Of a stretch of 64,000 nt of DNA, positions 15,547 to 59,092 are shown one piece after another; the first letter of the stretch is position 1; every line of letters begins with the position of its first letter. The stretch comes from Halomonas sp. M20. GTDB taxonomy: Bacteria > Pseudomonadota > Gammaproteobacteria > Pseudomonadales > Halomonadaceae. Made by a program: the position numbers and the translations under genes. Location of the stretch: contig NZ_JACNMQ010000002.1 in assembly GCF_020622265.1 (NCBI RefSeq), forward strand, positions 248,001 through 312,000, written 5' to 3'. The notes below the pieces were generated by a model. That model was not told the origin of the DNA and made no database searches. It saw nothing but the letters and a program-made list of their open reading frames with translations.

Positions 15547-15819
15547 TTACCCCCATTTCAGGATGATAAAGAGCCCCGCCACGCTGGCTAGCGTGGCGAT
15601 CCATAGCGGCCAGACGGTCAGCGCAAGCAGCAGCAAGTGTAGATATCCGGCGCCCAGCAGGCTGATGAACAGTCGATCCCCCCGGGTCGTCGAGATCGGC
15701 AGAAACCCCTTGCGCTGATGTCCCGGCGATACCGTCTGCCAGATCGTCATCGCGGTCAGAATCAAGGCGATGGCGATGAAGAAACTTGCTGTCGGTAATG
15801 TCCACGCCATCCATTCCAT
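15547..15819 (-). CDS. glpU: DUF2160 small membrane protein (GlpU-like)
   Basis: A 90-residue inner-membrane protein with three hydrophobic segments (about residues 5-25, 52-68 and 70-88) and a positively charged loop between the first two (SPGHQRKGFLPISTTRGDR). This is the DUF2160 pattern; the family is found almost only inside glycerol-type ABC operons, between the permease and binding-protein genes, exactly as here. Its role is unknown; an accessory part of the membrane complex is a reasonable inference. Confidence 0.85.
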   Translation of the reverse strand: MEWMAWTLPTASFFIAIALILTAMTIWQTVSPGHQRKGFLPISTTRGDRLFISLLGAGYLHLLLLALTVWPLWIATLASVAGLFIILKWG

Positions 15820-15834
15820 ATGCTGTCTCTCCGG

Positions 15835-16635: not shown

Positions 16636-16643
16636 GATGCGCC

Positions 16644-36464: not shown

Positions 36465-37538
36465 TTAGCTTCCCACCCCGCCGATCAGGATGAAGCCCAG
36501 CACCAGCAACAGCAGGAACGCTGTCTCGACTACCATCAAAATGATGGGTTTCCAGCCGACCACGGCAAGCTTCTGAAAAGACGTCTTTATCCCGAGACCC
36601 GCGATGGCCGTGACCAGACACCAGCGCGAGAGATCCGTGAGCCCTTCGACGGCAACCGGCGGAATGAGACCGAAACTGTTGATGATCACGATGACGATGA
36701 AGCCGACCAGAAACGTCGGCAGCATGGGCACCTTGCCGCCGGTTCCTTTTTCGGCCTGGCGTTGCTGACGGTAAATGAAAATAAAACACATCACCGCCGG
36801 CACCAGCATGGCTACCCGCAACAGTTTGACGAAAGTAGACACATCCCCGGTATGCTGAGAAATGATGTAGCCCGCCCCCACTACCTGAGCGACATCGTGG
36901 ATGGTTCCCCCCAGGAAGATCCCGGCCTGGTCGTCGCTCAAGCCCAGCACACTGACAAGCAGCGGATAGGTCACCATGGCGATTGTAGAGAGTGCGGTCA
37001 CTGCCACCACGGTGAGAATCGTATTGCGTTCGTGATTTTCATGGCGTGGCATGGCAGCAGAAAGCGCCAGGGCCGCGGAAGCGCCACAGATGGCGACCGA
37101 GCCGCCGGTGAGAAGCCCTAAATCTTTGGGTAACCCGAGCATTCTGGCCACGGCGTAACCCACCAGAATCGTCGTGGTAACGCCGACGATGACTGTCAAG
37201 ATAGGACCGAATCCAAGCTCGCTAATCTGTTCGACGGTGATACGCACCCCGAGCAGGGCAACCCCGATGCGCAGGATGGTGCGCGAGGCGAACTCCACTC
37301 CCGCCAGGCAGCGGCCTTCCTCGGAGAGAAAGTGCAACGACATGCCGAACAGCAACGCATAAAGCATCACCGGCCCACCATAATGATCGGCGATGAAGGT
37401 AGTGGCCAAGGCAATTGTGACGCATACCAGTACACCGGGCATGAGTTCGGTAAAACGTTCTGCTCGGCGCCCTCCCATGCGATGAAAATGTTTCTTCAGC
37501 GCGCTCTCGGGCTGGGAATTGGGATCTTGCTCGGCCAT
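36465..37538 (-). CDS. UPF0324/YeiH family exporter, SuyZ/TauZ-like
   Basis: A 357-residue inner-membrane protein of the YeiH (COG2855) family with about ten helices. Diagnostic segments are GVALLGVRITVEQI, GGSVAICGASAALALS and FLGGTIHDVAQVVGAGYIIS. In sulfonate-degrading bacteria members called SuyZ or TauZ lie beside sulfonate genes and are proposed sulfite exporters; that role is inferred, not proven biochemically to my knowledge. It is the last gene after the TRAP transporter and UspA genes on the same strand, which strongly suggests that the imported substrate is a sulfonate. ATG at 37538 with AGGTG 5 bases upstream. Confidence 0.85.
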   Translation of the reverse strand: MAEQDPNSQPESALKKHFHRMGGRRAERFTELMPGVLVCVTIALATTFIADHYGGPVMLYALLFGMSLHFLSEEGRCLAGVEFASRTILRIGVALLGVRITVEQISELGFGPILTVIVGVTTTILVGYAVARMLGLPKDLGLLTGGSVAICGASAALALSAAMPRHENHERNTILTVVAVTALSTIAMVTYPLLVSVLGLSDDQAGIFLGGTIHDVAQVVGAGYIISQHTGDVSTFVKLLRVAMLVPAVMCFIFIYRQQRQAEKGTGGKVPMLPTFLVGFIVIVIINSFGLIPPVAVEGLTDLSRWCLVTAIAGLGIKTSFQKLAVVGWKPIILMVVETAFLLLLVLGFILIGGVGS

Positions 37539-37644
37539 GAAATCACCTTTAGGAATAAAATCACCGATCGGTATCCAAGCCGACCGGTCAGTACTACATG
37601 AATACATTGAAACATTGTCTAGCGCAGCGCTGCAGCGCTCAGTG

Positions 37645-38133
37645 TCATGCTGGCCCCGGCACCACAATCACGGGGATATGCGAACGCTTCAGCACACCCT
37701 TGGCAACTTTGCCCGCATAGGAAGCGTTCAGGCCGTGCTTGTTGGCTGCGACCACAATGAAGTCATGGGAATGCTTTGCCGCAACGTCATTGATTACAGA
37801 GGCCGGATAGCCTTCGAGCACCTCGAGGGCGACCACTCGAGAAGCCAGCGCCTGCTTTTCTTCGGGGTGATGCTCGAAAAACTCACCGATCTTGTCCTGC
37901 AACTGTTCCCTGGCCAGGTCGATACGCTGATGCAGGAATCCTTCAAGCGATTCGCGATTACGAATATTGGCCCTGAGAGTACTCATCACGTCCTCGGCCA
38001 AAGGCTTGACCACATGCAGCACGTGCAACTCGGCCCCGGTGCTCAGTGCCAGCCTCGTTGCCTGCTCCAGCACACCATGAGAGTCGCCACGCAACCCCAC
38101 ACAGCAGAGAATACTCGCGATTCGTTGTTCCAT
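37645..38133 (-). CDS. Universal stress protein A family, TRAP-associated
   Basis: A 162-residue UspA-fold protein. The ATP-binding type motif near the C-terminus is present in the form VVAANKHGLNASYAGKVAKGVLKRSHIPVIVVP (G-2x-G-9x-G variant). It lies between the TRAP large-subunit gene and the exporter gene. TRAP operons often include such a protein; TeaD of Halomonas elongata is an ATP-binding UspA protein that restrains the ectoine TRAP transporter TeaABC, so a similar brake is a sensible hypothesis here. GGAG lies 6 bases before the ATG. Confidence 0.87.
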   Translation of the reverse strand: MEQRIASILCCVGLRGDSHGVLEQATRLALSTGAELHVLHVVKPLAEDVMSTLRANIRNRESLEGFLHQRIDLAREQLQDKIGEFFEHHPEEKQALASRVVALEVLEGYPASVINDVAAKHSHDFIVVAANKHGLNASYAGKVAKGVLKRSHIPVIVVPGPA

Positions 38134-38332: not shown

Positions 38333-39676
38333 CTAATACCCCATCATTCTCGGCAACCACAAGGAAATCTCGGGGAAGTAGGCAATGATGAACACGGCAA
38401 ATATCGAACCGGCGGCAAAGGGCAAGGCCTTAAGCGAGATTTCCTCGATCGAGGCGCCCCCTATCCCCGAGGCCACGAACAGATTCTCCCCCAAGGGCGG
38501 TGTCTGGAAGCCGATGGCCAGAGCGCAGACCACAACGATGCCGACCTGTACCGGGTCCACCCCCAGCATGTACATGATGGGCAACAGCACCGGCGTCAGG
38601 ATCATGATGGCCGCCAGAGTTTCCATGAACATGCCGACGAATAACAGGAAGACGATGATCATCGCCCAGATCAGATAAAGGTTGTCAGTGAAGGACAGCA
38701 TGGCCTCGGCGATGTGCGCCGGCACCCGCTGTTCTACCAGCAGCCGGCCGAAGACGGTTGCGGTGAACAGAATCAACAGCACCCGACCGGTGATCCAGGT
38801 CGTGGTCTCCAGGGTGCGCATGGCGGGTTTCCACTTGAGTTCCTTATGCAGGAAGATACCCACCACCAAAGTATAGGCGATCGCGACGATAGCGGACTCC
38901 GTTGGTGTAAAAAGTCCGGTGTAGATACCGCCAAGGATGATGATCGGCGCCAGTATCGACCATATGCCCTTGCGCAGCGTCGCGCGGATATGCGGAAACG
39001 ACCAGCTATCCGTCAGACCGCGATAGCCCTTCTTGCGCGAAATGAAATAATTGATGGTCAGCAGACAGGTGGCGATGACCACACCAGGAAAGATACCGGC
39101 GATGAACAGCTTAGGGATCGATAGAGTCTGGAACGAGCCATGCAGTGCCACCGCCTCGGGGGGCGGTTGCAGCCCCATACCCGAAATACCGAAGATGACC
39201 ATGGGAATAGAGGGCGGAATGACCACGCCAAGCCCTCCGGAGGAAGCGGTAACCGCCGAACCGTAAGCGCGGTCGTAGCCTCGATTGGCCATTGCGGGAA
39301 TCATCAGCATGCCGACCGCAGCGGTCGTTGCCGGGCCCGAACCGGAAATGGCGCCGAAGAACATGCAGGCGAATACGGTAGCGGCGGCCAAACCACCGGT
39401 AACCGGCCCCGCAAAGGCCTCGGCAATATCCACCAGACGTTTCGAGATCCCCGCTGCCTCCATCAGCGCCCCTGCAAGAATGAAGGCAGGTAATGCCATC
39501 AGCGGGAAGGAGCCCACGGAGGTGAACGCCATCTGCACGAAAGCCATGGGGTTTTCGCCGATGGAAAGATAGGTAATAAGTGCTGCAACACCCAGGGACA
39601 CCGTGATAGGAGCCCCCAACAGCAACAGCAGCAGGAAGGCGCCGAAAAGGATGTAGATGATCGTGGTGTCGGTCAT
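38333..39676 (-). CDS. tauM: TRAP transporter large membrane subunit (DctM type)
   Basis: A 447-residue DctM-family subunit with about 12-13 hydrophobic segments, the sodium-driven translocation part. Typical elements are FAGPVTGGLAAATVFACMFFGAISGSGPATTAAVG, ASSGGLGVVIPPSIPMVIFG and VGIVVVCALAIGFQTPPLGENLFV. It starts 3 bases after the small subunit gene. The tau name is inferred from context: upstream binding protein, divergent MocR regulator, TauXY beyond it, and sulfite exporter downstream. A MITE-like element abuts its stop codon. Confidence 0.82.
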   Translation of the reverse strand: MTDTTIIYILFGAFLLLLLLGAPITVSLGVAALITYLSIGENPMAFVQMAFTSVGSFPLMALPAFILAGALMEAAGISKRLVDIAEAFAGPVTGGLAAATVFACMFFGAISGSGPATTAAVGMLMIPAMANRGYDRAYGSAVTASSGGLGVVIPPSIPMVIFGISGMGLQPPPEAVALHGSFQTLSIPKLFIAGIFPGVVIATCLLTINYFISRKKGYRGLTDSWSFPHIRATLRKGIWSILAPIIILGGIYTGLFTPTESAIVAIAYTLVVGIFLHKELKWKPAMRTLETTTWITGRVLLILFTATVFGRLLVEQRVPAHIAEAMLSFTDNLYLIWAMIIVFLLFVGMFMETLAAIMILTPVLLPIMYMLGVDPVQVGIVVVCALAIGFQTPPLGENLFVASGIGGASIEEISLKALPFAAGSIFAVFIIAYFPEISLWLPRMMGY

Positions 39677-39679
39677 GGC

Positions 39680-40243
39680 TCAGCGCTCCTGATTGCTGCT
39701 GTTGGATTTATCCTGCTGATTGGAGCGCTTCATCTTTTCCACTTCCTCGGTCTCGGGATCGACCAGATCCACCTTCTTCACGTATTTCAGATAGTCGTTT
39801 TGAATGATACGAAACGTCATCGCCAGGAAAGCGATAGGCAGGATCAGATAGAAGTACTTCATCGGCACCCCAAGCGTCTGGGATTTCCAGAACAGATTCA
39901 TCTTGTTGAAGACGAAGTCGTAGCTCAGGTAGATGAATACGGCATTGAATGCGATCCAGATGACGTCGGTCAAAAGGGTGCAGAACGTCTCGACCCACTT
40001 GGGAAAGAACTTGAATTGGAAGGTGACCCGGTTATGGGCTGCCATTTTCGCTGCGTAGACCGCGCCCAGATAGGCGAACCAGACGAAGGCATAGGTTGCC
40101 AGTTCGTCGCCCCAGGCCAGTGAATAGCTGAACAGGTTTCTCAGCACGATTTGCGCAAAGAGAATGACAACGAAAGAGACCAGGAGAAACTGGCATATAT
40201 AGTTCTCCAGGTTGTTGAGAATATGAAGTGTTATACGCTTCAT
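39680..40243 (-). CDS. tauL: TRAP transporter small membrane subunit (DctQ type)
   Basis: A 187-residue DctQ-family protein with four predicted helices; FAQIVLRNLFSYSLAWGDELATYAFVWFAYLGAVYAA is the family signature region. It forms the membrane complex with the large subunit. The C-terminal 30 residues are a highly charged tail with many Ser, Asn and Gln, longer than usual. It follows the binding-protein gene with a hairpin in between (40304-40333), an arrangement that usually lowers membrane-subunit expression relative to the binding protein. Confidence 0.82.
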   Translation of the reverse strand: MKRITLHILNNLENYICQFLLVSFVVILFAQIVLRNLFSYSLAWGDELATYAFVWFAYLGAVYAAKMAAHNRVTFQFKFFPKWVETFCTLLTDVIWIAFNAVFIYLSYDFVFNKMNLFWKSQTLGVPMKYFYLILPIAFLAMTFRIIQNDYLKYVKKVDLVDPETEEVEKMKRSNQQDKSNSSNQER

Positions 40244-40303
40244 GGCGATTGGCCCCTGCCCGTGATGGGATCCGACAATCCCGGTCTTTCTGGCTCACTG
40301 ACG

Positions 40304-40333
40304 CCTGCACCGACTTCCAGGAGTCGGTGCAGG
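40304..40333 (-). promoter_or_regulatory. Intercistronic hairpin between tauK copy 1 and tauL
   Basis: CCTGCACCGACT/AGTCGGTGCAGG, a perfect 12-bp stem with a 6-base loop, 31 bases past the binding-protein stop. There is no U-tract, so it more likely protects or partly terminates the tauK message than ends it. A related hairpin follows the second tauK copy (41867-41898). Confidence 0.75.
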
Positions 40334-40363
40334 ATTTGGTTTACAGCATATACTTGGCGAGTA

Positions 40364-41377
40364 TCATCCGGCGGGAGCTGGCTCGCGACCCAGTGCCTGC
40401 AATGCCTCGTCGAGTTTTTCCTTGCCACCGATGCTGTCGTAGAACTGCGGCCAGACCTGGGTGGCCTGTTCGATCCACGCTTTTTCATCATTGGCAGGCT
40501 GGGTAATGGTCATGCCATGCTCATCGACCAGTTTCTTCTTGATGGAATCCTCGGTTTCGATGAGATAGTCATAGCTGTGCTCGGTGGCTTCCTGGCCGGC
40601 GGCGAGCACGGCTTCCTGCATCTCCGGATCCAGGCTCTGGAACTGCCCTTCACCCATGATCAGAGGTTCGAGTAGGAACACGTAGCAACTGTCAGTGACA
40701 TGACTCTGCACTTCGTAGAACTTCATGGCATCGATGGTGATGTAAGGGGTGTCCTGCCCATCCACCACGCCTTGCTGGAGAGCGGTGAAAGTTTCAGTCC
40801 AGGCCAAGGGATTCGGGTTGACCCCCCAGGCCTGATAGGCGGCGATCATGATTTCGTTCTTGGGTACGCGAATGACCAGACCCTCGATATCTTCGGGCTT
40901 TTCGATAGGCCTCTCGGAGTTGGTCAGGCGGCGACAGCCGGCGTAGGACCAGCTGAGGATGCGCACCCCGGCGTCGCGAATCGTGTTTTCGGTCATCTGA
41001 TCGCCGATTTCGCCCTGAGTGAGCTTCTTGGCGTCCTCGGCGTTCTGAATCACATAAGGCAGGGTCATCACACCCACGGTGGGAGAAAACGGCGTAATGT
41101 TGTTGATGGCCAGAATCGACAGATCCAGCAGCCCCATGCTGGCGTTGTTGACGGTATCCTGCTCGCTGCCCAACTGGCCGTTGGGGAAGATATCGACCGT
41201 GATATCGCCACCGCTCTTTTCTTCGATCAACTCGGCGAACTTGGTCGCGAGCTCATATTGGGTCCCGCCGGCGGCGTCACCGACAGCCATTTTCCAGGTT
41301 TGTGCCAAGACATTGCCACTCAGCGCAAGGCTGGCGATGGAAATGGCGGCCGGTAGCATCAGTTTTGTTAGTTTCAT
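40364..41377 (-). CDS. tauK: TRAP transporter substrate-binding protein, copy 1 (taurine-type, TauK-like)
   Basis: A 337-residue periplasmic DctP-family binding protein. The signal peptide ends at about residue 25 (NVLAQ). The conserved ligand arginine is in VIRVPKN (residue 170), and the hinge segment WGVNPNPLAWTETFTALQQG is typical. Compared with copy 2 it has about 30 substitutions, clustered at residues 142-166; position 210 is Thr in GQDTP where the family usually has Asn. The start at 41377 (MKLTKLMLPA) has GGAG upstream. It is in operon with tauL and tauM. Taurine as substrate is inferred from neighbours. Confidence 0.82.
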   Translation of the reverse strand: MKLTKLMLPAAISIASLALSGNVLAQTWKMAVGDAAGGTQYELATKFAELIEEKSGGDITVDIFPNGQLGSEQDTVNNASMGLLDLSILAINNITPFSPTVGVMTLPYVIQNAEDAKKLTQGEIGDQMTENTIRDAGVRILSWSYAGCRRLTNSERPIEKPEDIEGLVIRVPKNEIMIAAYQAWGVNPNPLAWTETFTALQQGVVDGQDTPYITIDAMKFYEVQSHVTDSCYVFLLEPLIMGEGQFQSLDPEMQEAVLAAGQEATEHSYDYLIETEDSIKKKLVDEHGMTITQPANDEKAWIEQATQVWPQFYDSIGGKEKLDEALQALGREPAPAG

Positions 41378-41660
41378 GACATACTCCCAACGTTGTTTTT
41401 GTCTAGGCGGCGCCAGAAAGAAAGCACCGTTACTTTCTGCAAACACAATTCTGAGAAAACGGCTTCAAGCTGCGTATTTTCATGGGTGCGGATTGAACGA
41501 CCCTGGTGACTTCGCGAGTTATTAGCTACCGTTTTACCGCCTTGCTTTTCGGCTTTTCACTCAACGATAGATCATCCTCGACGAACCTGCTTGTAGAAAC
41601 AGTCATAATCCGTTGACGCCCTTCCTCGCCTACTCTCTTGAAACGCATGGATTGCCAACA

Positions 41661-41692
41661 GGGCCAGTTCATCGATTCGTTTTGGGCCAGTT
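41661..41692. promoter_or_regulatory. Direct-repeat operator upstream of tauK copy 1
   Basis: Two GGGCCAGTT units (41661-41669 and 41684-41692), 23 bases apart start to start, i.e. AACTGGCCC twice on the minus strand. MocR/TauR-type regulators bind such tandem direct repeats about two helical turns apart (TauR sites contain CTGGAC-type cores, from memory). The same pair recurs upstream of copy 2. CATAAT at 41695-41700 corresponds to the TATAAT in the other copy. Confidence 0.6.
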
Positions 41693-41866
41693 GGCATAAT
41701 TCACCATAATTCAACGTGTTCATTGTCTAGCGGATAGCGGCGCTTTGACTTAAGTCGTATAAGCAAACGTACAGGAAAAGAGTTGATGGGATACATTTCT
41801 TGCCAATTCGGCCTGCAAGCAGGATCAGCGATGGCGCAATAATGACCAGTATTTTGACTAACTGAG

Positions 41867-41898
41867 GCCTACACCGACTCGAGAGGGTCGGTGTAGGC
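41867..41898 (-). promoter_or_regulatory. Hairpin downstream of tauK copy 2
   Basis: GCCTACACCGAC/GTCGGTGTAGGC, 12-bp perfect stem with an 8-base loop, 30 bases past the copy 2 stop. Its sequence is related to the hairpin after copy 1 and is offset by 1563 bases, so it belongs to the duplicated unit. No strong U-tract follows. Confidence 0.75.
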
Positions 41899-41927
41899 TG
41901 TGCCAAACACTATCTACTTAGAGGCTA

Positions 41928-42941
41928 TTACTCTGCGGGAGCCGGCTCACGACCCAGTGCTTGCAATGCCTCGTCAAGTTTTTCCTTGCCTCCGATGCTG
42001 TCGTAGAACTGCGGCCAGATCTGGGTGGCCTGTTCGATCCACTCTTTTTCATCGTTGGCGGGCTGGGTAATGGTCATGCCATGCTCATCGACCAGTTTCT
42101 TCTTGATGGAATCCTCGGTTTCGATGAGATAGTCATAGCTGTGCTCGGTGGCTTCTTGGCCGGCGGCGAGCACGGCTTCCTGCATCTCCGGGTCCAGGCT
42201 CTGGAACTGCCCTTCGCCCATGATCAGTGGCTCGAGGGAGAATACATAGCAGCTGTCGGTAACATGATCCTGCACTTCGTAGAACTTCATGGCATCGATG
42301 GTGATGTAAGGGTTGTCCTGACCATCGACCACACCCTGCTGCAGAGCGGTAAAGGTTTCAGACCAGGCCAGCGGGTTGGGATTGACGCCCCAGGCTTGGT
42401 AAGAAGCGATCATGATTTCGTTCTTGGGTACGCGGATGACCAAGCCGTCGAGATCAGAGGGTTTTTCAACCGCCTTGGAGGAGTTGGTGAGACGACGACA
42501 GCCCGAATAGGCCCAGCCCAGGATACGCACACCCGCATCACGAATGGTATTTTCGGTCAGTTGCTTGCCGATATCGCCCTGAGTCAACTTCTTGGCATCC
42601 TCGGCGTTCTGAATGACGTAAGGTAGTGTCAGTACACCGACTGTGGGCGAAAAAGGGGTGATGTTGTTGATTGCCAGAATAGACAGGTCAAGCAATCCCA
42701 TGCTGGCATTGTTGACGGTATCCTGCTCGCTGCCCAACTGGCCGTTGGGGAAGATATCGGCCGTGGTATCGCCACCGGTCTTTTCTTCGATCAACTCGGC
42801 GAACTTGGTAGCGAGCTCATATTGGGTTCCACCGGCGGCGTCCCCCGTCGCCAATTTCCAGTTCTGCGCCAATGCATTACCGCTGAGCGCTAGACCGGCG
42901 ATGGAAATGGCGGCGGGCAACATCAGTTTTGTTAGTTTCAT
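41928..42941 (-). CDS. tauK: TRAP transporter substrate-binding protein, copy 2 (taurine-type, TauK-like)
   Basis: A 337-residue DctP-family binding protein, by eye about 91% identical to copy 1 and of equal length. The signal peptide ends near NALAQ. Arg170 is conserved, and the cleft segment reads GQDNP with the family-typical Asn at 210. Other differences from copy 1 include D225 and S235, facing positions S225 and L235. It has no membrane-subunit gene of its own, so it must either share TauLM or reach them by read-through past the hairpin and the copy 1 control region. It faces the divergent MocR gene, sharing a 519-base region with it. Confidence 0.82.
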   Translation of the reverse strand: MKLTKLMLPAAISIAGLALSGNALAQNWKLATGDAAGGTQYELATKFAELIEEKTGGDTTADIFPNGQLGSEQDTVNNASMGLLDLSILAINNITPFSPTVGVLTLPYVIQNAEDAKKLTQGDIGKQLTENTIRDAGVRILGWAYSGCRRLTNSSKAVEKPSDLDGLVIRVPKNEIMIASYQAWGVNPNPLAWSETFTALQQGVVDGQDNPYITIDAMKFYEVQDHVTDSCYVFSLEPLIMGEGQFQSLDPEMQEAVLAAGQEATEHSYDYLIETEDSIKKKLVDEHGMTITQPANDEKEWIEQATQIWPQFYDSIGGKEKLDEALQALGREPAPAE

Positions 42942-43221
42942 GACTTACTCCAACATTGTTTTTGTCCAAACGGTGTCAGATAACACCATTATGTCTTGGC
43001 TACTACGATCCTGAAGAAAATAGCTTTAAGCGAGGTATTTTTCCTTTGCAGTGGTTCGAATAGTCATAGTGGCTTTAGTAGTTATCGGTTGCCGTTTAAT
43101 CGCCTTTAATATCGGCTTTCTGGTAAACGGAAGATCGTCTGTGCACACATTTCTGTCTAGGCACTCACTATCCACTTACAGCACACCAATGACTCTCCTC
43201 TATGCGCAAGGATCATCAACA

Positions 43222-43261
43222 GGGCCAGTTCATCGATTCGTTTTGGGCCAGTTTATATAAT
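43222..43261. promoter_or_regulatory. Direct-repeat operator and mocR-type promoter upstream of tauK copy 2
   Basis: GGGCCAGTT at 43222-43230 and again at 43245-43253, followed on the plus strand by TATAAT (43256-43261). A regulator bound at the repeats would cover the -35 region of a promoter that reads toward the MocR gene (start 43461), which fits MocR autorepression, and could activate tauK on the other strand. The tauK start is 281 bases away. Confidence 0.6.
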
Positions 43262-43460
43262 TCGCCGTAATTCAGCATGTTCGCTGGCTGATGAAGAACG
43301 AAATTTTGACTTAAGTCGTATGGGTAGGCACACAGGAAACGGTTGAAGCGACATATTTCTTGCCAATCCGGCCTACAGACAGGAACGGTAATGGCACAAT
43401 AGTGAACAGTATTTTGACTAACAATGAGGTGCCGTCGCGATCGGCCCTCGGGTGACGAAC

Positions 43461-44939
43461 ATGAATCAACTACTTTTTCATCTTGACCCCACGTTACCGA
43501 TCAGTCTGCAACAACAGCTGCGCGAGCAGGTGGCCCGCGCCATTCTCGACGGCCATATCCCGGTGAGCAAAGCCCTGCCCTCGAGTCGCAGGCTGGCCCA
43601 GGAACTGGGTATTGCACGCAATACCGTCATGCTGGTCTACGAACAGTTGCTCGATAGCGGTTATCTAATGGCGAAAAGCCGCAGCGGTTATTTCGTCAAT
43701 CCAGAGATCCTCGAGGGGCATGCCGCGCGACCGGCGCGTCTCAACGACATCGATGCGGAACATCTGGCCTGGGAGGAGCTCTTGACCATGCACCCTTCCC
43801 GCCAGGAGACCATCAACAAACCCAACGACTGGCCGTGTTACGAGTACCCTTTCATCTACGGCCAGATCGACCCGGAGTTGTTTCCTACTCAACACTGGCG
43901 AGAATGCAGCCGCGACTCCATGAGTGTGCCGGCCATTCGCAGCTGGGCGGTGGATCATCTCAACGATGACGATCCCTTGCTCATCAAGCAGATCCGCACG
44001 CGCCTGTTGCCAAGACGCGGTGTCTGGGCAGCGCCAGAAGAGATTCTGGTGACGGTGGGCGCCCAGCAGGCACTTTGGCTGGTCAGCATGCTGCTGCTCA
44101 AGCAGGGTCGCCGTTTTGGCATGGAGAATCCGGGCTATGTCGACATGTACAACATCGCCTCGATCTTCACCAAGGACATCCTGCTACTGCCGGTGGATGA
44201 ACAAGGCATGCGCCTGGAAGCGCGGATCAGCACCTGCGATCTGATTTATGTCACTCCCAGCCACCAGTCACCCACCACGGTCACCATGCCACTCGATCGG
44301 CGGCGAGCGCTGCTCGACCTGGCGGAACAGGATAACTTTCTGATCGTGGAGGACGACTACGAGAGCGAGACCAACTATCTCGACAACCCCACCCCGGCGC
44401 TCAAGAGCCTGGACAAACACCAGCGGGTCATCTACGTCGGCAGCCTCTCCAAGACCCTCGCACCCGGCTTGCGGGTAGGCTACATGGTCGGGCCGCCGGC
44501 ATTGATCCGCGAGGCCCGCGCGCTGCGGCGGCTGATGCTGCGCCACCCACCGACCAACAATCAGCGCGCGGTGGCGCTATTTCTCGATCGCGGTTATCAC
44601 GATGCCCTGCTGCGTCAGATCCATCGTGTCTATCATCGTCGCTGGCAGTGTATGGGCGAGGCACTGGCCACCCACATGCCCCACGCCTCGACCCCCTCTG
44701 CCTATGGCGGTGCCAGCTTCTGGGTAAAGGGGCCGGCCGGCCTGGATTGCAACCTGCTGCGGGAATTGGCACGCAAGCAGGGCATTCTCATCGAGCGGGG
44801 CAATCTACACTTTTTCGACGAACCCCAGGGTGAATATTTTCGCCTGGGCTTCGGGGCAATTGCGGAAAAACGCATCGAACCGGGTATCGAGCAGTTGGCA
44901 CGACTAATTCCCCAGGCGATCCTCGCCGATACACCATGA
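43461..44939 (+). CDS. tauR: MocR/GabR-type transcriptional regulator, TauR-like
   Basis: A 492-residue fusion of a GntR-type winged helix (residues about 10-75, with SLQQQLREQVARAILDGH and LAQELGIARNTVMLVYEQL) and a type I aminotransferase-like domain. The PLP lysine is Lys331 in YVGSLSKTLAPGLRVGY and the VEDDYESE segment is typical of the family. Such proteins sense PLP adducts of amino compounds; TauR controls taurine genes in Rhodobacter. It is divergent from the tauK copy 2 gene with direct repeats between them. The ATG at 43461 is preferred over the GTG at 43452. Ligand specificity is inferred. Confidence 0.8.
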   Translation: MNQLLFHLDPTLPISLQQQLREQVARAILDGHIPVSKALPSSRRLAQELGIARNTVMLVYEQLLDSGYLMAKSRSGYFVNPEILEGHAARPARLNDIDAEHLAWEELLTMHPSRQETINKPNDWPCYEYPFIYGQIDPELFPTQHWRECSRDSMSVPAIRSWAVDHLNDDDPLLIKQIRTRLLPRRGVWAAPEEILVTVGAQQALWLVSMLLLKQGRRFGMENPGYVDMYNIASIFTKDILLLPVDEQGMRLEARISTCDLIYVTPSHQSPTTVTMPLDRRRALLDLAEQDNFLIVEDDYESETNYLDNPTPALKSLDKHQRVIYVGSLSKTLAPGLRVGYMVGPPALIREARALRRLMLRHPPTNNQRAVALFLDRGYHDALLRQIHRVYHRRWQCMGEALATHMPHASTPSAYGGASFWVKGPAGLDCNLLRELARKQGILIERGNLHFFDEPQGEYFRLGFGAIAEKRIEPGIEQLARLIPQAILADTP

Positions 44940-45023: not shown

Positions 45024-46460
45024 TTAGAACACTTCATCCTGCAGGTGGTACCAGCGGTACAGAAAGCGCTGGCCAATGCGGCGGAACGGCGCAAATACCT
45101 CGGCTTCAACCTTTTCGCGCAAGTTGGGAAACGGCAGGCGCGAATTGAAGATTGGCAGATCGAGCTCCTGCCCTTTACCGGCAATGAATTGTGCCATTCG
45201 CTTTCCAGCCTGGGCCGAATACATCACGCCATTACCGCCATACCCCAAGGCATAATAAATCGTCTGACTCGCATCCGGCTGATAGATGCGCGGCATCATG
45301 TCGTGGCTGACATCGACCCAACCCCACCAGGAATAGTCGATCTGGATGTCCTCCAACGCCGGGAACTTGCGGTGTAGATCGCGAATCAGCATCTCCTCGA
45401 ACTTCTTGGCCGGCGCGTCCTTGCCCGAGATTGCGCTACGACTACCGATCTGTACCCGATTATCCGGCAGACGACGATAGTAGTGGCGTAGTATCCGAGT
45501 ATCCGTGATCACCTGTTTGGTCTTGAAATTACAGGCATCCAGTTCCTGCTCCGTCAGCGGCCGTGTGACCAGCGAGTTGGACAAAATCGGCAACAGACGA
45601 TTCTTGAGTTCCGGATGCAGACTCTGGGACGTATAACCGCCGGTGGCGATACCTACCGCCCGGGCCTTGACGGTGCCGCCCGGGGTCTTTAGATAATGCA
45701 CGCCATTTCGTGTTTCCCAACCCTGAACCGGACTGGCTGGATGGATCTTGACACCAAGGGCCCTGGCCTTCTTGTGATAACCGAAAGCCAGCTTGCCCGC
45801 ATGAATACCGATTCCCTCGGGTTCATGCATGGCACCGGCGGCTTCAGTATCACCCACCCAGTCACGCTTGACCGTGTCCGCATCGATGATCTGAGCGTCA
45901 TAATCGAAGGTTTCGCGCAATAGCTTGGCTTCCTTCTCCAGCTTCGCCATGACCTTATCGCGGTGTGCTATATACAAGTGGCCACCGGGCTGAGGCTCGC
46001 AGTCGATATCCCTGATCAACTCCTTGAAGGTGTTCATGCCATCCACACACTCGGCATGCATTTTCAGTGCAGTATCCAAGCCCCAACGCTCGATCCACTG
46101 GGAGCGCTTTAGACGGCCCGAGGCGCACTGCGCCTGTCCCCCGTTGCGAGTACTACAGCCCCAACTGGCGCGATTGGCTTCCAGCACGGTTGCCTTGATG
46201 CCATGCTCCTGAGCCAGGAAGATAGCCGCCGTCAGCCCAGTGAATCCCGAACCGATGATGACCACATCGACATCCATATCCTGAGTAACCGGACCATCGT
46301 CCTCCGGCGGCTCACCCGCCGTACCGATCCAGTAGGTCGGCGCATAGTCCCGGCCCTGGCCCGGCGTTGCGCTCTTCAAAGGATCGTAGGCCGGATCATA
46401 TGGCTGAGAGGGGGCAGTACTGCGACCACTAGCCGCGCCTGCCTGTGTTGTTGTATCCAT
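45024..46460 (-). CDS. tauY: Taurine dehydrogenase large subunit-like FAD oxidoreductase
   Basis: A 478-residue flavoprotein of the glycine/D-amino acid oxidase (DAO) fold. After an unusual 60-residue hydrophilic N-terminus comes the FAD-binding motif VVIIGSGFTGLTAAIFLA, then the CSTRNGGQ flavin-contact loop and a late GYGGNGVMYSAQAGKRMAQ. It follows a small SnoaL-fold gene by 50 bases, matching tauXY order, and sits next to the TauR-like gene, so oxidative deamination of taurine to sulfoacetaldehyde is proposed. A related amine oxidoreductase remains possible. The ATG at 46460 has GAGGAG 7 bases upstream. Confidence 0.75.
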   Translation of the reverse strand: MDTTTQAGAASGRSTAPSQPYDPAYDPLKSATPGQGRDYAPTYWIGTAGEPPEDDGPVTQDMDVDVVIIGSGFTGLTAAIFLAQEHGIKATVLEANRASWGCSTRNGGQAQCASGRLKRSQWIERWGLDTALKMHAECVDGMNTFKELIRDIDCEPQPGGHLYIAHRDKVMAKLEKEAKLLRETFDYDAQIIDADTVKRDWVGDTEAAGAMHEPEGIGIHAGKLAFGYHKKARALGVKIHPASPVQGWETRNGVHYLKTPGGTVKARAVGIATGGYTSQSLHPELKNRLLPILSNSLVTRPLTEQELDACNFKTKQVITDTRILRHYYRRLPDNRVQIGSRSAISGKDAPAKKFEEMLIRDLHRKFPALEDIQIDYSWWGWVDVSHDMMPRIYQPDASQTIYYALGYGGNGVMYSAQAGKRMAQFIAGKGQELDLPIFNSRLPFPNLREKVEAEVFAPFRRIGQRFLYRWYHLQDEVF

Positions 46461-46510
46461 GATCGGACTCCTCAAAATAGGGATGTCTCAGCTGCCAGGC
46501 AGCTTGTATA

Positions 46511-46900
46511 TCAGGCGCCTTGATTGAGGGGCGGACGGTTCTTGCGGAACGCATTCTTTACCGCAATCTTGCCGTCGCGGAAGGTAAAGGCGTCGATCAT
46601 ACGTGCTTCGGAGCGCACACCATCGGTCGTGGTGCCCTTGTAGGTCGATTCGGAGAAGCCGTGATCGCCGATCACGTAATGCTCACCGTCAACCCACTCG
46701 GCATCCGGTGCATTCTTCCAGGCACCCTCGAGCCCTTGGCGCACTTCGTCCTGACCCTTGAATGTCTTGCCCAGCAGATCCGGCCCGGCGATGGCATGAA
46801 ATTCACAGTCATCCGTCATCATCGACATGACCGCATCGATATCGTGATCGTTGAGGGCTTGGCTGAAGGCTTTGAGGAAATCGGCGTCGGGCTGGCTCAT
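46511..46900 (-). CDS. tauX: Taurine dehydrogenase small subunit-like SnoaL/NTF2-fold protein
   Basis: A 129-residue protein with the SnoaL/NTF2 cone fold: LKAFSQALNDHDIDAVMSMMTDDCEFHAIAGPD at the start and DAFTFRDGKIAVKNAFRKNRP at the end. It resembles the small subunit TauX of taurine dehydrogenase and is the first gene of a two-gene unit with the flavoprotein. Whether it is catalytic or structural is unclear. The ATG at 46900 has AGGAG 6 bases upstream; the frame to 46960 is not credible. Confidence 0.75.
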   Translation of the reverse strand: MSQPDADFLKAFSQALNDHDIDAVMSMMTDDCEFHAIAGPDLLGKTFKGQDEVRQGLEGAWKNAPDAEWVDGEHYVIGDHGFSESTYKGTTTDGVRSEARMIDAFTFRDGKIAVKNAFRKNRPPLNQGA

Positions 46901-47056
46901 GCTGTACTCCTGGCGTAGGGATAATTGTTCAAGATAAAACATGCGGCAAAACTTGATCATGCCGCCTGCATCACCTCAGCGTAGTACCACCGCCGACAAA
47001 ACACCTAGCACCAGATGAGACACAACTGTTGGGCCAGCACCAGTCACCATTGCCAG

Positions 47057-48148: not shown

Positions 48149-48337
48149 TCGTCAGGTTCTCATCGGCTAAAATCGCTACTCATAGAAAATAATTTCAGAA
48201 AACGATACGATTTGCATGTTTTTTAGAAACACAACTATGATGGAGTGATTGTTCCACTCTTTGATCTAGACTCAAGATAGCGCTTAGTAAAACAGCGCCC
48301 CACGATTGTGCCAAAGACTGCTCCGAGGAGATCCGAC

Positions 48338-49318
48338 GTGACCGAGCTTCAACATGCCAAGCCCGACAAGATGCAGTCCGTACGCACCCTCTTCGATATC
48401 GACAGCGATCTGGAAGTGCCCACTTTCAGCGAGCGCGGCGATCATGTGCCGGAAATCGACACCGCCTATAGGTTCAATCCGGATGTGACCTTGGCGATAC
48501 TGGCCGGCTTTACCCGCAATCGCCGGGTCATGGTCCAGGGGCTGCACGGTACCGGCAAATCGACCCATATCGAGCAGGTGGCGGCACGCCTCAACTGGCC
48601 CTGTCTGCGGGTCAACCTGGACGGCCATATCAGCCGCCTCGACCTAGTGGGCAAGGACACCATCGTGGTGCGCGACGGCCTGCAGGTCACGGAGTTCCAG
48701 GAAGGCATCGTGCCCTGGTCGCTGCAACGCCCGGTGGCGCTGATTTTTGATGAGTACGACGCGGGGCGGCCGGACGTGATGTTCGTCATCCAGCGCATCC
48801 TCGAGCGGGATGGTAACTTCACCCTGCTGGATCAGAACCGGGTGATTCATCCCCATCCTTATTTCCGCCTATTCTCGACGGCCAACACCGTGGGCCTGGG
48901 CAATCTCGACGGCATGTACCACGGCACCCAGGTGCTCAACCACGCCCAGATTGACCGCTGGAACATCGTTGCCAAGCTCGACTACCTGCCCCACGACGAG
49001 GAGGTCAAGATCACCCTGGCCCGAGTGCCTGCCAAGGACAACGAGAAAGGACGCAAGCTGATCGATTCGATGGTCGAGGTGGCGGATTTGACCCGCAAAG
49101 GCTTTGCCGCCGGGGATTTGTCTACCCTGATGTCGCCCCGCACGGTGATCACCTGGGCGGAGAACTGCGAGATTTTCCGCAATCCGGCCCGGGCGTTTCG
49201 CCTGTCTTTTCTCAACAAGTGCGACGAGGCCGAGCGTCCCATCGTGGCGGAGTACTATCAGCGCTGCTTCGGCGAGGAGCTCGACGAGTCCTACCAGAAC
49301 AACCAGGACACGTTCTAG
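48338..49318 (+). CDS. CobS-like AAA+ ATPase (MoxR/CobS type)
   Basis: A 326-residue AAA+ protein close to the CobS subunit of aerobic cobaltochelatase. Walker A is GLHGTGKST, Walker B is [13 protein letters not shown], and the sensor region is [11 protein letters not shown]. The start is GTG at 48338, with GAGGAG 7 bases upstream; the earlier GTG at 48308 is less likely. No cobN or other cobalamin gene is in the window, so this and its partner may work on a target other than cobyrinate. Its stop overlaps the next gene's start by one base. Confidence 0.82.
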
Positions 49319-51039
49319 TGGCCACTCCGCAGCAGCTTGCCCGCCGTCAACAGCACATCGAGGAGCTGTGTGCCGCCTCGCTGCGGGCGCTGACCGGGGA
49401 ACGCGACCTGCACTATCGTGGTAAACGCCTGCATCATGGCGCCCAGCCGGTACCAGTGCATGCACCCCACCTGCGCCTGGACGACGACAACCAGGATTTC
49501 ACCGCCTATCGGGGCGTTGCGGATGCCACGGCCCTGCGTCTCATGCATTCCGACATCGATTTGCACCGGCGATTGTGCCCGGAAGACCCGGTGGCACGCT
49601 TGATCTTCGAACTTCTCGAACAGCTGCGGGTCGAGGCACTGGTACCAAAAGGCTTGCCCGGCATGGCCCGCAATCTGGATCAGCGTTTCGAGGAGTGGTC
49701 CCAGGATTTTCACAACTCCCGATTGACCGAAGGCGTCGTGGGCCGGCTGATCTTCTCCATCGCCATGATCTGTTGGACGCGCATCACCGGTCGCCCGCTT
49801 GATGAGGAGACCGGGGATTTCATCGAAACCACCCGGGGGCGTCTAGTACCGATCATCGGCGCGGATCTGGCCGGGCTGCGACGTCATCGCCAGGATCAAG
49901 CTGCCTTCGCCGAACACGCGCTCAATATTGCCCGAGTCACTTCCCAAGGGGTCACCGATGCCCGCGAGGCGCTGGGCGATGACGACGATCAGGATGATGA
50001 CGAGGAACTAGAAGGCTTCGCGCTCTTTCTCGATTTCGATGAAGACAACGACGAAGGCTTTGCCCCCGCCCTTTCCGGCCATAGCAAGGTCTTCGATGAC
50101 GCGGAGCAGCGCTATCGCATCTTCACCACGATCCATGATCGGGAAGACGCAGCCCCCGATCTGGTGCGCCCTGCCAAACTTGATGAATATCGCCAGCGTC
50201 TGGACAAGGAAATTGCGGAGTTGGGCATCAATATTCGCCGCCTGGCGCAGCTGTTTACCGCGCATTTGAGCAACCTCGAGCGGGACGGCTGGAGCTTTGG
50301 TGAAGAGGAAGGCTATATCGACGGCCGACGCCTGGCCCAGCTGATTACCTCCCCGGCGGAGCGCCGCCTGTTTCGTCTTGAGCAGTACAAGCCCCAGGCC
50401 AACAGCATGGTCAGTTTCCTGATCGACTGTTCCGGCTCGATGAAGACCTACAGCGAATCCACCGCCATACTTCTGGACCTGCTGACCCGGGCTCTGGAGA
50501 TGGCCGGCGTCACCACGGAAATCCTTGGCTTCACGACAAATGCCTGGAACGGCGGCCGCGTCCAGAAAGAGTGGATGGGCCAGGGGCGCTCGAAGAATCC
50601 CGGGCGCCTCAATGAAGTGCGCTATCTGGTATTCAAGGAGGCCGCTCAGTGCTGGCGACGGGTGCGCCGCAACATCGGCGCCCTGCTCAAGCACGACCTC
50701 TATCGCGAAGGTATCGACGGCGAAGCCGTGGATTGGGCCTGCAACCGTATGCTCGGGCGCGACGAACAGCGCCGCATTCTCATCGTGATCTCTGATGGCT
50801 GCCCCATGGACACCGCCACCAACCTGGCCAACGACAAGTTCTACCTGGATAACCATCTCAAGGATGTCGTTGCCCGCCGGGAACGCCAAGGCGAAGTGGA
50901 AATCCGTGGGCTCGGGGTCGGTCTTGATCTGAGCCCCTTCTACCGTCACAGTCTGGCGCTGGACCTGGCCAACCCCATCGACAACGAGATGCTGATGGAG
51001 GTGGCGCAGTTAGTCGTCGGCAAGCTTCGCCAGCGCTAG
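49318..51039 (+). CDS. CobT-like VWA-domain protein
   Basis: A 573-residue protein resembling CobT. The N-terminal half is helical with a strongly acidic patch (DDDDQDDDEELEGF, near residue 221), and the C-terminal von Willebrand factor A domain has the MIDAS motif DCSGSMKTYS. It starts with GTG at 49318, formed by the overlap TAGTG with the AAA+ gene, which means tight translational coupling. AAA-VWA pairs usually act together as metal-insertion or remodelling machines. Without cobN here, the substrate is unknown. The longest open frame starts at 49219, but that part is not credible. Confidence 0.8.
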   Translation: MATPQQLARRQQHIEELCAASLRALTGERDLHYRGKRLHHGAQPVPVHAPHLRLDDDNQDFTAYRGVADATALRLMHSDIDLHRRLCPEDPVARLIFELLEQLRVEALVPKGLPGMARNLDQRFEEWSQDFHNSRLTEGVVGRLIFSIAMICWTRITGRPLDEETGDFIETTRGRLVPIIGADLAGLRRHRQDQAAFAEHALNIARVTSQGVTDAREALGDDDDQDDDEELEGFALFLDFDEDNDEGFAPALSGHSKVFDDAEQRYRIFTTIHDREDAAPDLVRPAKLDEYRQRLDKEIAELGINIRRLAQLFTAHLSNLERDGWSFGEEEGYIDGRRLAQLITSPAERRLFRLEQYKPQANSMVSFLIDCSGSMKTYSESTAILLDLLTRALEMAGVTTEILGFTTNAWNGGRVQKEWMGQGRSKNPGRLNEVRYLVFKEAAQCWRRVRRNIGALLKHDLYREGIDGEAVDWACNRMLGRDEQRRILIVISDGCPMDTATNLANDKFYLDNHLKDVVARRERQGEVEIRGLGVGLDLSPFYRHSLALDLANPIDNEMLMEVAQLVVGKLRQR

Positions 51040-56054: not shown

Positions 56055-57065
56055 TCATCCGTCTCGCTCGACCGCCTGGGCCTGTACCGCAGTGACGGCA
56101 ATTACATGATAGACGTCATCGGCGCTACAGCCTCGGGAGAGATCGTTGGCCGGTTTGGCCAGCCCCTGCAGCATGGGTCCGATGGCTTTGGCGCCACCGA
56201 TACGCTCCGCCAGCTTGTAGCCGATGTTACCGGCTTCGAGGTCGGGAAAGACCAGCACATTGGCTTCGCCCTTGACGCGGGAATTCGGCAACTTGCGCTG
56301 CGCGATCTCGGGTACGATGGCGGCATCGAGCTGTATATCCTCATCGATGGCGAGTTCGGGGCGTTCGGCCTTCACTTGGCGCGCCGCTTCGACCACCTTG
56401 TCCACCGCTGCGTGCTTGGCGCTACCGTTGGTGGAAAATGACAGCATGGCCACTTTCGGCTCCTCGCCGAGCAGAGCACTAGCGCTATCCGCCGCTGCCT
56501 TGGCAATTTCGGCAAGCTCCTCGGCCTTGGGATCGATGACCAGGCCGCAGTCGGAGAAGATCATGCCTCCCTTGTGTTGATGATGCGCTTCTTCCATCAC
56601 CATCAGGAAGAAGCTCGACACCAGCTTGGCGCCAGGCTTGACCCCGACGATCTGAATGGCGCTACGCACTACGTCCGCGGTGGTATGCACCGCACCGGCA
56701 ACGGAGCCATCAGCATGTTCCAGGCGCACCAGCAGATCGGCGAAGACCAGCGGCTTTCGCACTTCGTGCTCGGCCCGCTCATGGGTCATGCCCTTCTTGT
56801 GGCGCAATTGATACAACGCCTCGACCAGGGAGGGGGTCAATGACGACTCAGCCGGGTCGAGCAGAGTGATGGCATCTAGAGACAGGTTATTGTCGGCTGC
56901 CGTGGTTTCAATCTTCGCGCGTTCACCGACCAGGCTGATGTCGGCGATGCCATCCTGGGCCGCACGAACGGCTGCTTTCAATACTCGTGGGTCGTCGCCT
57001 TCGCAAAGAACGATACGCTTACGCGCCTTTTTGGCACGCTCCATGATGTTGTCGAGCACCTGCAT
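56055..57065 (-). CDS. pta: Phosphate acetyltransferase, short type
   Basis: A 336-residue single-domain enzyme of the PTA/PTB family that converts acetyl phosphate and CoA to acetyl-CoA and phosphate. VLCEGDDPRVLKAA, GAVHTTADVVRSAIQIVG, MLSFSTNGSAKH and NVLVFPDLEAGNIGYKLAERIGGA-like blocks are all present. This short form, without the N-terminal DRTGG/BioD-like domains, is the type found beside xsc in sulfonate degraders. GGAG lies 9 bases before the ATG. A terminator-like hairpin separates it from xsc. Confidence 0.93.
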   Translation of the reverse strand: MQVLDNIMERAKKARKRIVLCEGDDPRVLKAAVRAAQDGIADISLVGERAKIETTAADNNLSLDAITLLDPAESSLTPSLVEALYQLRHKKGMTHERAEHEVRKPLVFADLLVRLEHADGSVAGAVHTTADVVRSAIQIVGVKPGAKLVSSFFLMVMEEAHHQHKGGMIFSDCGLVIDPKAEELAEIAKAAADSASALLGEEPKVAMLSFSTNGSAKHAAVDKVVEAARQVKAERPELAIDEDIQLDAAIVPEIAQRKLPNSRVKGEANVLVFPDLEAGNIGYKLAERIGGAKAIGPMLQGLAKPANDLSRGCSADDVYHVIAVTAVQAQAVERDG

Positions 57066-57271: not shown

Positions 57272-59092
57272 TTACACGTAGTCCTGATACTTCTCCAGCA
57301 TCCGTACCGGCTTCTTCAGGGCGTCACGACGGAACGGGTCGCCCAGCTCGCGGGTACACATGATCTCGACGATGCAGGTCTTGCCTTCGTTCATCTGCAT
57401 GTCGATGGCCTTCTTCAGCGCCGGGCCCACGTCTTCGAGCTTATCCACTACCATGCCTTCGGCGCCCATTGCGCGACCGATCTCGGCGAAGCTCTCGTTA
57501 TCCAGCTCACCGGCAACGAAGCGACGGCCGTAGAAGTCCACCTGGTTCTTCTTCTCGGCGCCCCACTGACGGTTATGGAACACGATGGCGGTAACCGGAA
57601 TGTTGTGACGCACGCAGGTCATGGTTTCCATCAGGCTCATGCCCCAGGCGCCATCGCCGCAGTAAGACACGGCAGGACGTTCAGGCGCAGCAACCTTGGC
57701 CCCGATCATTGTCGGGAAGGCATAGCCGCAGTTGCCGAAGCTCATCGGCGCGAAGAAGCTGCGGGGCTTCTCGAAGCGCAGATAGCTGTTGGCCACGGAG
57801 TTGATGTTGCCGATGTCGGTCGAGACCATGACGTTTTCCGGCATGGCTTTTTCGAGCTCACGCAGCACCTGACGCGGGTGCAGGTATTCACCGCCGGAGA
57901 AGGTCTTCTCCTGCTTGTTTTCCTCAATTACGTCGAGGCTGTAGTCGTCCCGCTCATGGGTCCACTCATCCAGCTCTTTCTCCCAGGCGTCCTGCTCGCT
58001 CTTGATGGTCTTGGCGCGCTCATCCTTGTTGCTGTCACAGGCCAGATCCCGGCCCTGCAGGCGTTCAGTCAGGGCGACAGCGGCTTCCTTGGCATCGCCG
58101 CAGATGCCTACGGAGATTTTCTTGACCAGTCCGAGCATCTTGTGATCCGCGTCGATCTGGATGATCTTGGCATTGGTCGGCCAGTAGTCCATGCCGTGCT
58201 GGGGCAAGGTGCCGAAGGGCCCAAGACGCGTCCCCAGGGCGACAACCACGTCCGCCTGTGCCATCAGCTTCATCGATGCCTTGGAACCCTGATAGCCCAG
58301 CGGGCCACACCACAGCGGATGGCTAGCGGGGAAAGAGTCGTTGTGCAGATAGCTATTGACCACCGGTGCGTTGAGGCGCTCTGCCAGCGCCTTGCACTCT
58401 TCCACGCCGTCCGCCATGACCACGCCGCCACCGGAAATGATCACCGGGAACTGGGCCTTGGCCAGCAGATCCGCCGCTTCGTCCAGGGTCCTGGCGCCAC
58501 CTGGGCCACGATCCAGACGCATCGGCTTGGGAATCTCGGCCTCGATCTCGCCGTAGAAGTAGTCCCGGGGAATATTGAGCTGGGTCGGGCCGATCTCGGA
58601 CATGGCACGATCAAAACAGCGACCGGTAAATTCCGCCATACGCGCCGGATGGGTGACGTGCCCCTGGTACTTGGTGAACTCCTGGAACATGGGTAGCTGG
58701 TTACATTCCTGGAAGCCGCCCAGGCCGATACCCATGGTGCCGGTTTCCGGCGTAATGATGACGACCGGGGTATGCGCCCAGAAAGCCGCAGCGATGGCGG
58801 TCACGCTGTTGGAGACGCCTGGGCCGTTCTGGCCGATCAGTACGCCGTGGCGGCCGGAGGCGCGGGCATAACCGTCCGCCATGTGACCGGAGCCCTGTTC
58901 GTGTACCACCGGGATCAGACGAATGCCCGCCGGAGCAAAGATATCCATGGCATCCATGAAGGCTGAGCCCATGATGCCGAACATATCGGTAACGCCGTTA
59001 GCCACCAACGTTTCGACGAAGGCTTCGGACGGTGTCATCTTCTGCTTGCCTTGAACAACCTGGCGGTTGTCGGTGTTGTCTTGGGTGCTCAT
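57272..59092 (-). CDS. xsc: Sulfoacetaldehyde acetyltransferase
   Basis: A 606-residue thiamine diphosphate enzyme that phosphorolyses sulfoacetaldehyde to acetyl phosphate and sulfite, the key step of taurine breakdown. The N-terminus (MTPSEAFVETLVANGVTDMFGIMGSAFMDAMD) and the Xsc signature GQNGPGVSN distinguish it from acetolactate synthases; the TPP motif YCGDGAWGMSLMETMTCVRHN is intact. Length is near the usual 590-600. GGAGGG lies 6 bases before the ATG. It is divergent from an IclR gene and leads the xsc-pta-tauE unit. Confidence 0.95.
   Translation of the reverse strand: MSTQDNTDNRQVVQGKQKMTPSEAFVETLVANGVTDMFGIMGSAFMDAMDIFAPAGIRLIPVVHEQGSGHMADGYARASGRHGVLIGQNGPGVSNSVTAIAAAFWAHTPVVIITPETGTMGIGLGGFQECNQLPMFQEFTKYQGHVTHPARMAEFTGRCFDRAMSEIGPTQLNIPRDYFYGEIEAEIPKPMRLDRGPGGARTLDEAADLLAKAQFPVIISGGGVVMADGVEECKALAERLNAPVVNSYLHNDSFPASHPLWCGPLGYQGSKASMKLMAQADVVVALGTRLGPFGTLPQHGMDYWPTNAKIIQIDADHKMLGLVKKISVGICGDAKEAAVALTERLQGRDLACDSNKDERAKTIKSEQDAWEKELDEWTHERDDYSLDVIEENKQEKTFSGGEYLHPRQVLRELEKAMPENVMVSTDIGNINSVANSYLRFEKPRSFFAPMSFGNCGYAFPTMIGAKVAAPERPAVSYCGDGAWGMSLMETMTCVRHNIPVTAIVFHNRQWGAEKKNQVDFYGRRFVAGELDNESFAEIGRAMGAEGMVVDKLEDVGPALKKAIDMQMNEGKTCIVEIMCTRELGDPFRRDALKKPVRMLEKYQDYV

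Follow-up and report, generated by a model that had tools for sequence, protein, structure and literature searches.

A 64,000-nucleotide stretch of the Halomonas sp. M20 genome (contig NZ_JACNMQ010000002.1, positions 248,001 to 312,000; hereafter the window) carries two tandem genes for substrate-binding receptors of the tripartite ATP-independent periplasmic (TRAP) type, SBP1 (copy 1) and SBP2 (copy 2), beside the genes of a single membrane permease. With moderate confidence, we favor a taurine importer of the TauKLM type in which these tandem receptors, of differing specificity or affinity, feed one TauLM complex under one TauR-like regulator. This reading goes beyond an initial annotation of the same DNA, which had described the duplicated gene and its flanking elements: it adds the probable taurine cluster with its TauR-like regulator, the occurrence of the pair in two genera, apparent homogenization of parts of the two genes in some genomes, and differences between the receptors in the predicted ligand pocket.

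Two receptor genes beside one permease pair

SBP1 and SBP2 lie in two head-to-tail units (coordinates in Table 1) that align in one blastn block with 80.5% identity over 1589 columns and 20 gap positions, and the repeat families within these units recur at spacings of 1564 (D1), 1561 (D2), 1560 (D3), and 1563 (D9) nucleotides. As the initial annotation had proposed, the duplicated segment comprises the hairpin, the direct repeats, and the palindrome as well as the gene, all of them present in both units, and a single DctQ/DctM pair adjoins the two receptors. The encoded proteins are of equal length (337 amino acids) and differ at exactly 30 of 337 positions, in agreement with the earlier estimate of about 30; the genes differ at 134 of 1014 nucleotides (13%), mostly at third codon positions (24, 15, and 95 differences at positions 1, 2, and 3). 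Since dN/dS between them is 0.082, both genes look to be under purifying selection. The two receptors match PF03480 (245.7 and 253.4 bits) and exceed the TIGR00787 cut-off of 175.05 (199.9 and 203), so that together with DctQ (PF04290) and DctM (PF06808) the family-7 solute-binding protein and both permease components of a DctP-type TRAP system are in place. An assembly duplication was one of the outcomes named earlier as fatal to the proposal. We found no point in support of such an artefact or of a very recent duplication, and the probability of either is negligible: the 13% nucleotide divergence and the recurrence of the tandem layout in the separately assembled genomes G083, G073, G114, and G013 refute an assembly error.

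The neighboring genes point to taurine. Xsc and Pta both score above their family cut-offs, and TauXY- and TauZ-like genes were assigned by family and synteny. The candidate TauY shares 64.3% identity with the product of a Sinorhizobium meliloti gene that stands between an NTF2-family gene and xsc in a tauA cluster, and S. meliloti lacking tauY, tauR, or tauC did not grow on taurine (PMC4254191). MocR, TRAP, NTF2, FAD oxidoreductase, and xsc genes also stand in one run on Paracoccus plasmids and, as far as the sequence was retrieved, on Limimaricola plasmids. Judging by this synteny and by the surrounding Xsc, Pta, YeiH, TauX/TauY-like, and MocR genes, the locus most likely serves taurine dissimilation and includes an importer of the TauKLM type. 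The known TauKLM/TauR/TauXY/Xsc/Pta/TauZ clusters (PMC5320631) have the same gene content, a MocR regulator, direct-repeat operators, and one DctQ/DctM pair; unlike them, the window has two tandem receptors with differing ligand-site residues, matches the TauR consensus only in part, and carries Xsc and Pta 13–14 kb away from the receptors.

In the mechanism that we propose, the regulator, in the presence of taurine or a related amine, would act through both operators. Copy 1 would bind taurine, as its context suggests, and copy 2 would bind either a related small anion or taurine at a different affinity, with both closed receptors docking on the same TauL/TauM. The stem-loops would stabilize the receptor mRNA, and the receptors would thereby outnumber the permease. 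A comparable arrangement is found in the HisJ/ArgT system of Salmonella, in which tandem receptor paralogues of different specificity share one common membrane complex, although this is an ABC rather than a TRAP importer and handles other ligands. To our knowledge, whether one TRAP membrane complex can serve several receptors is an open question, and no TRAP case of tandem receptors with one permease appeared among the literature titles searched, subscription papers being mostly outside reach. A natural pair of receptors that are 91% identical, with few ligand-site differences and one permease pair, is a near-ideal test system. Receptor specificity also bears on sulfonate cycling, taurine being an abundant marine osmolyte. 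Receptors outnumbering membrane components have been described in the TTT family, where one TctA was suggested to work with more than one TctC (PMC5812351), but these are not TRAP systems, and their receptors are scattered orphans, not paired in tandem next to a permease. The work on the isethionate receptor IseP (PMC11668362) points to the handover of ligand from receptor to membrane component in TRAP systems as the gap to be closed next.

Ligand-site residues of the two receptors

IseP (PDB 8t9t/8te9) provides the structural frame for comparing the two copies. AlphaFold models of both receptors have mean pLDDT values of 86.8 and 86.1, and the structural match of the SBP1 model to isethionate-bound IseP (8te9_B) has a root-mean-square deviation of 1.9 and a target TM-score of 0.92. 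Identity to IseP is 28–29%, the fold is shared, and R149, R170, N210, and S235 align with Arg156, Arg177, Asn217, and Ser242 of IseP at a constant offset of 7 (numbering via 4P47). In IseP, the sulfonate is bound by the first three of these residues, and the fourth, Ser242, gives support to Arg156 on closure (PMC11668362). Both arginines and the copy-1 Asn and Ser thus align with the sulfonate site, whereas in copy 2 Thr and Leu take the Asn and Ser positions. The equivalent of IseP Tyr153 is two residues from position 144, and that of Trp200 is one residue from position 194.

Nineteen fixed differences separate copy 1 (four genomes) from copy 2 (three genomes). At positions 144, 194, 210, and 235, the four copy-1 orthologues, one copy of G013, and the eight close single-copy genomes compared read A/S/N/S (type A), and the three copy-2 orthologues, the gene of G051, and the other G013 copy read S/T/T/L (type B); positions 55 and 165 also track the types, yet vary among single-copy genomes. 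We compared these proteins with 72 reference rows, from which L061–L064 (contigs of G083, G073, G051, and G114) were excluded and which include G044; since about 11 other genomes are present twice, 72 rows are not 72 genomes. Among the 125 positions conserved in ≥97% of these rows, only 210 and 235 differ in every one of the five type-B proteins while being unchanged in the five type-A proteins, with N210 and S235 each present in 71 of 72 rows. Position 146 is Ser in all 72 rows and Ala in SBP2 and the G013 type-B copy. R149 and R170 occur in 31/31 aligned rows. The window's own genome encodes 15 other DctP-type receptors; in the six aligned (L003–L008), R170 and N210 are present in every one and R149 in four.

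T194, T210, and L235 also occur in a receptor of G044 that is 57% identical (G044:C3:185755-186732; L034, L133). Because its two nearest relatives found in 369 genomes of the class have S/N/S at these positions, this combination of residues appears to have had more than one origin. The TRAP genes of G044 sit with UspA, MocR, LysE, and Pqi-type genes, none of which indicates a ligand, and Xsc was not found in this genome at E 1e-150; the same model matched nine of nine other genomes. On this evidence G044 favors a copy-2 ligand other than taurine; G051, whose taurine cluster holds Xsc and has type B as its sole receptor type, favors a taurine-like one. Two phosphate-binding TRAP receptors without the Asn have been described (PMC11668362), which made 2-aminoethylphosphonate a candidate for the copy-2 ligand. 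It was dropped because PhnW (E 1e-60) was found in G030 alone among nine genomes, and all six genomes of this clade were negative.

We advance one further step tentatively, as a possibility that we would not yet call the likelier case: SBP2 may have a ligand other than taurine, and the replacement of Asn/Ser by Thr/Leu, together with S194T and A144S, may be a recurrent specificity switch with at least two origins (the type-B lineage and G044), which would have survived homogenization with the sister gene and would let one TauLM serve two ligands. An exchange of two to four residues that reappears in a distantly related receptor gives a concrete prediction. The initial annotation had raised the possibility that the pair extends the range of substrates or affinities, an idea that gains strength from the predicted pocket changes of copy 2.

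Several observations weigh against a taurine importer with two functionally distinct receptors. The pocket positions were chosen after the alignments had been viewed and were mapped by sequence rather than by model distances. One of the genome's own receptors, L007, combines Leu at 235 (the sole Leu of the six aligned) with Asn at 210, and the two changes are thus not always linked in the wider family. In G051, the sole receptor is of type B while the taurine cluster and Xsc are kept, so that type B may still carry taurine. The second receptor copy of G114 (L039:4740-5748) consists of two overlapping fragments read in different frames, which may reflect a sequencing error or decay; copy 2 may thus be dispensable in that genome. 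The regulator passes the NCBIfam PdxR cut-off (362.1 > 320), which is also its best NCBIfam name. Finally, the operator half-sites agree with the TauR consensus, direct repeats of CTGGACYTAA (PMC5320631), at 8 of 10 and 7 of 10 positions, a partial match.

Some of these points would also fit a difference in dosage or affinity only, in which both receptors bind taurine and copy 2 adds amount or covers another concentration range without any new ligand. Low dN/dS on both receptors, the homogenized stretches in G013 and G000 (see below), the same operator on both copies, and type B standing alone in the G051 taurine cluster with Xsc are all in line with this. Dosage alone, however, predicts neither the loss of two near-invariant positions in five of five type-B proteins nor the presence of the same residues in G044, and we regard this explanation as rather unlikely. 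It is improbable that the type-B copy is a decaying duplicate with a drifting pocket: the split G114 copy and the alignment of N210 with a ligand-coordinating residue speak for it, but dN/dS between the orthologous type-B genes of G000 and G083 is 0.036, G051 keeps only type B, and all five intact type-B copies carry the same four residues. Two receptors of differing specificity or affinity thus remain the reading that we prefer.

Distribution and history of the pair

At E 1e-120, the receptor is present in 27 of 201 genomes of the family, the window's own included, and in 5 of 14 genomes of its genus. Synteny was compared for 20 stretches from 19 of the 26 other matching genomes, G006, G044, G045, G079, G123, G160, and G176 lying outside this set. 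Two copies occur in G083, G073, G114, and G013 and a single copy in the other 15 of the 19, including G051, so that the pair is found in five genomes of two genera when that of the window is counted. A locus-based comparison (56 of 74 loci matched at 1e-40) returned the second copy in L061, L062, and L064, which are G083, G073, and G114 again. In G013 (L041:1210-3440), the two types stand in the opposite order to that in the window, counted from the regulator.

In the regulator tree (20 rows), G013 branches outside G051, which in turn branches outside the four genomes of the window's genus that carry the pair (supports 99/98, 100/99, and 92/95). The receptor DNA trees, built on 15 of 31 rows, differ along the gene. 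Nucleotides 1–705 recover a copy-1 clade (98/100), a clade of copy 2 with G051 (94/99), and both G013 genes together (94/92). Nucleotides 706–1014 again unite the G013 genes (100/100) and leave unresolved the seven genes from the tandem genomes of the genus. The whole-protein tree has a copy-1 clade (90/94) and a clade of copy 2 with G051 (92/97), with the G013 copies apart and their placement unsupported.

Parts of the two receptor genes look homogenized in some genomes, namely G013 and G000. Under a permutation that ignores uneven constraint, and with Fisher tests whose bounds (the cut at nucleotide 705 and the end at 960) were chosen after the trees and identity windows had been seen, the G013 copies share 253 identical nucleotides from position 749 (0/2000 uniform permutations) and differ less in nucleotides 706–960 than orthologues do (Fisher 8e-7 and 1e-8); their pocket difference is nevertheless kept. 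By the same measures, the longest identical run is 95 nucleotides in the G000 pair (0/2000; Fisher 0.0055 and 0.055), 71 in the G083 pair (6/2000; Fisher 0.071 and 0.39), and 29 in the G073 pair (1063/2000; Fisher 0.19 and 0.17).

From these patterns, we lean toward one duplication before the split of G013, followed by patchy homogenization and by the loss of copy 1 in G051. The alternative history, two independent duplications (in G013 and in the window's genus) with a convergent pocket change, would be compatible with either functional reading. It draws on the pairing of the G013 copies in the DNA trees of both gene parts and on their reversed order. At third codon positions, moreover, the G013 type-B gene is no nearer to other type-B genes, nor the type-A gene to other type-A genes, and G044 makes a separate origin of the residues possible. 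On the other hand, the whole-receptor protein tree does not pair the G013 copies, the same four replacements would have had to recur, and type B is present in G051, which branches apart from the genus' four tandem genomes. Within the G013 pair, third positions are least alike around codons 141–220 (identity 0.57–0.60), which fits an old split kept at the pocket. We therefore judge two duplications to be the less likely history, though still a substantial possibility.

Control regions, stem-loops, and neighboring genes

Perfect matches to CTGGMCY-N16-CTGGMCY occur only twice in the 64 kb, each preceding a receptor gene; the putative operator sequence CTGGCCCAAAACGAATCGATGAACTGGCCC is found upstream of both. 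With up to two mismatches, 18 matches were found, compared to a mean of 6.7 and a maximum of 16 in 100 shuffles. Comparable direct repeats precede the receptor genes of relatives, the row of the second G114 copy being only roughly positioned because its start came from a fallback distance; the half-sites of the G073 copy-1 operator are CTGGACCAAA and CTGGACCTAT. The palindrome beyond each operator, GACTTAAGTC, holds GACTTAA on both strands, a sequence similar to GACYTAA within the TauR consensus, and is possibly a third operator box. The initial annotation had assigned each copy a promoter region of its own. The operator and control region is indeed duplicated; promoters proper did not emerge, as a promoter scan of 40244–43500 gave a single promoter-like site, located on the opposite strand, where chance alone would yield 2.2.

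We also considered the 3' hairpins of the window as intrinsic terminators. Because no T run follows either of them on the gene strand, they do not look like such terminators; six terminator-like matches sit on the other strand. Local stem-loop energies below -22 kcal/mol, calculated without a shuffle control, occur within 200 nucleotides downstream of 26 of 31 receptor genes. Folds are weaker for G013a, G030, G045, G079, and G044, and in G044 a T run follows the stem-loop. We infer that the stem-loops of the window serve mRNA stabilization rather than termination.

Table 1 Features of the tandem units and of the surrounding gene cluster (window coordinates)
Feature	Position	Strand	Evidence or remark
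YeiH-family putative sulfate exporter, TauZ-like	36465-37667	-	PF03601 over cut-off; TIGR00698 157.9 < cut-off 232.6; annotated family shared with L057
Universal stress protein (UspA)	37645-38133	-	PF00582
TRAP large permease (DctM / TauM)	38333-39676	-	TIGR00786, PF06808
TRAP small permease (DctQ / TauL)	39680-40243	-	PF04290
Tandem unit 2: stem-loop, SBP2, control region	40288-41867		blastn block, repeat families D1-D3
Stem-loop between SBP2 and DctQ	40303-40333	-	Without T run on gene strand
SBP2 (TauK2, type B), DctP-family TRAP substrate-binding protein adjoining permease genes	40364-41377	-	337 aa; S144/T194/T210/L235
Putative TauR-like direct-repeat operator upstream of SBP2	41661-41690	-	Perfect match to CTGGMCY-N16-CTGGMCY
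Palindrome GACTTAAGTC beyond SBP2 operator	41747-41756	.	Sequence; conserved in relatives
Tandem unit 1: stem-loop, SBP1, control region	41852-43429		blastn block, repeat families D1-D3
Stem-loop downstream of SBP1	41868-41898	-	Without T run on gene strand
SBP1 (TauK1, type A), DctP-family TRAP substrate-binding protein adjoining regulator	41928-42941	-	337 aa; A144/S194/N210/S235
Putative TauR-like direct-repeat operator upstream of SBP1	43222-43251	-	Perfect match to CTGGMCY-N16-CTGGMCY
Palindrome GACTTAAGTC beyond SBP1 operator	43308-43317	.	Sequence; conserved in relatives
MocR-type regulator (GntR and aminotransferase domains), TauR candidate, divergent from receptor genes	43452-44939	+	Similar gene in taurine clusters L058, L059
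FAD-dependent oxidoreductase, TauY-like (candidate taurine dehydrogenase large subunit)	45024-46475	-	64.3% to S. meliloti protein
SnoaL/NTF2-like protein, TauX-like	46511-46960	-	PF12680; NTF2-family gene at corresponding place in L057-L059
Weaker operator-like site (2 mismatches) upstream of TauX-like gene	47008-47037	-	Class expected by chance, mean 6.7 per window
Phosphate acetyltransferase (Pta)	56055-57065	-	TIGR00651 363.2 > cut-off 311.2
Sulfoacetaldehyde acetyltransferase (Xsc)	57272-59092	-	TIGR03457 1058.4 > cut-off 676.4

CobS-like and CobT-like genes (48308–51039), which score below the cobaltochelatase cut-offs, border the taurine cluster; they are found next to it again in several relatives and next to the TRAP genes of L137. 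Two equal-scoring Xsc genes lie about 7 kb apart in G013 (C1:8865-10619 and 15768-17522) and likewise in G166 (C1:2798693-2800444 and 2806150-2807901), suggesting another duplication or homogenization near the taurine cluster.

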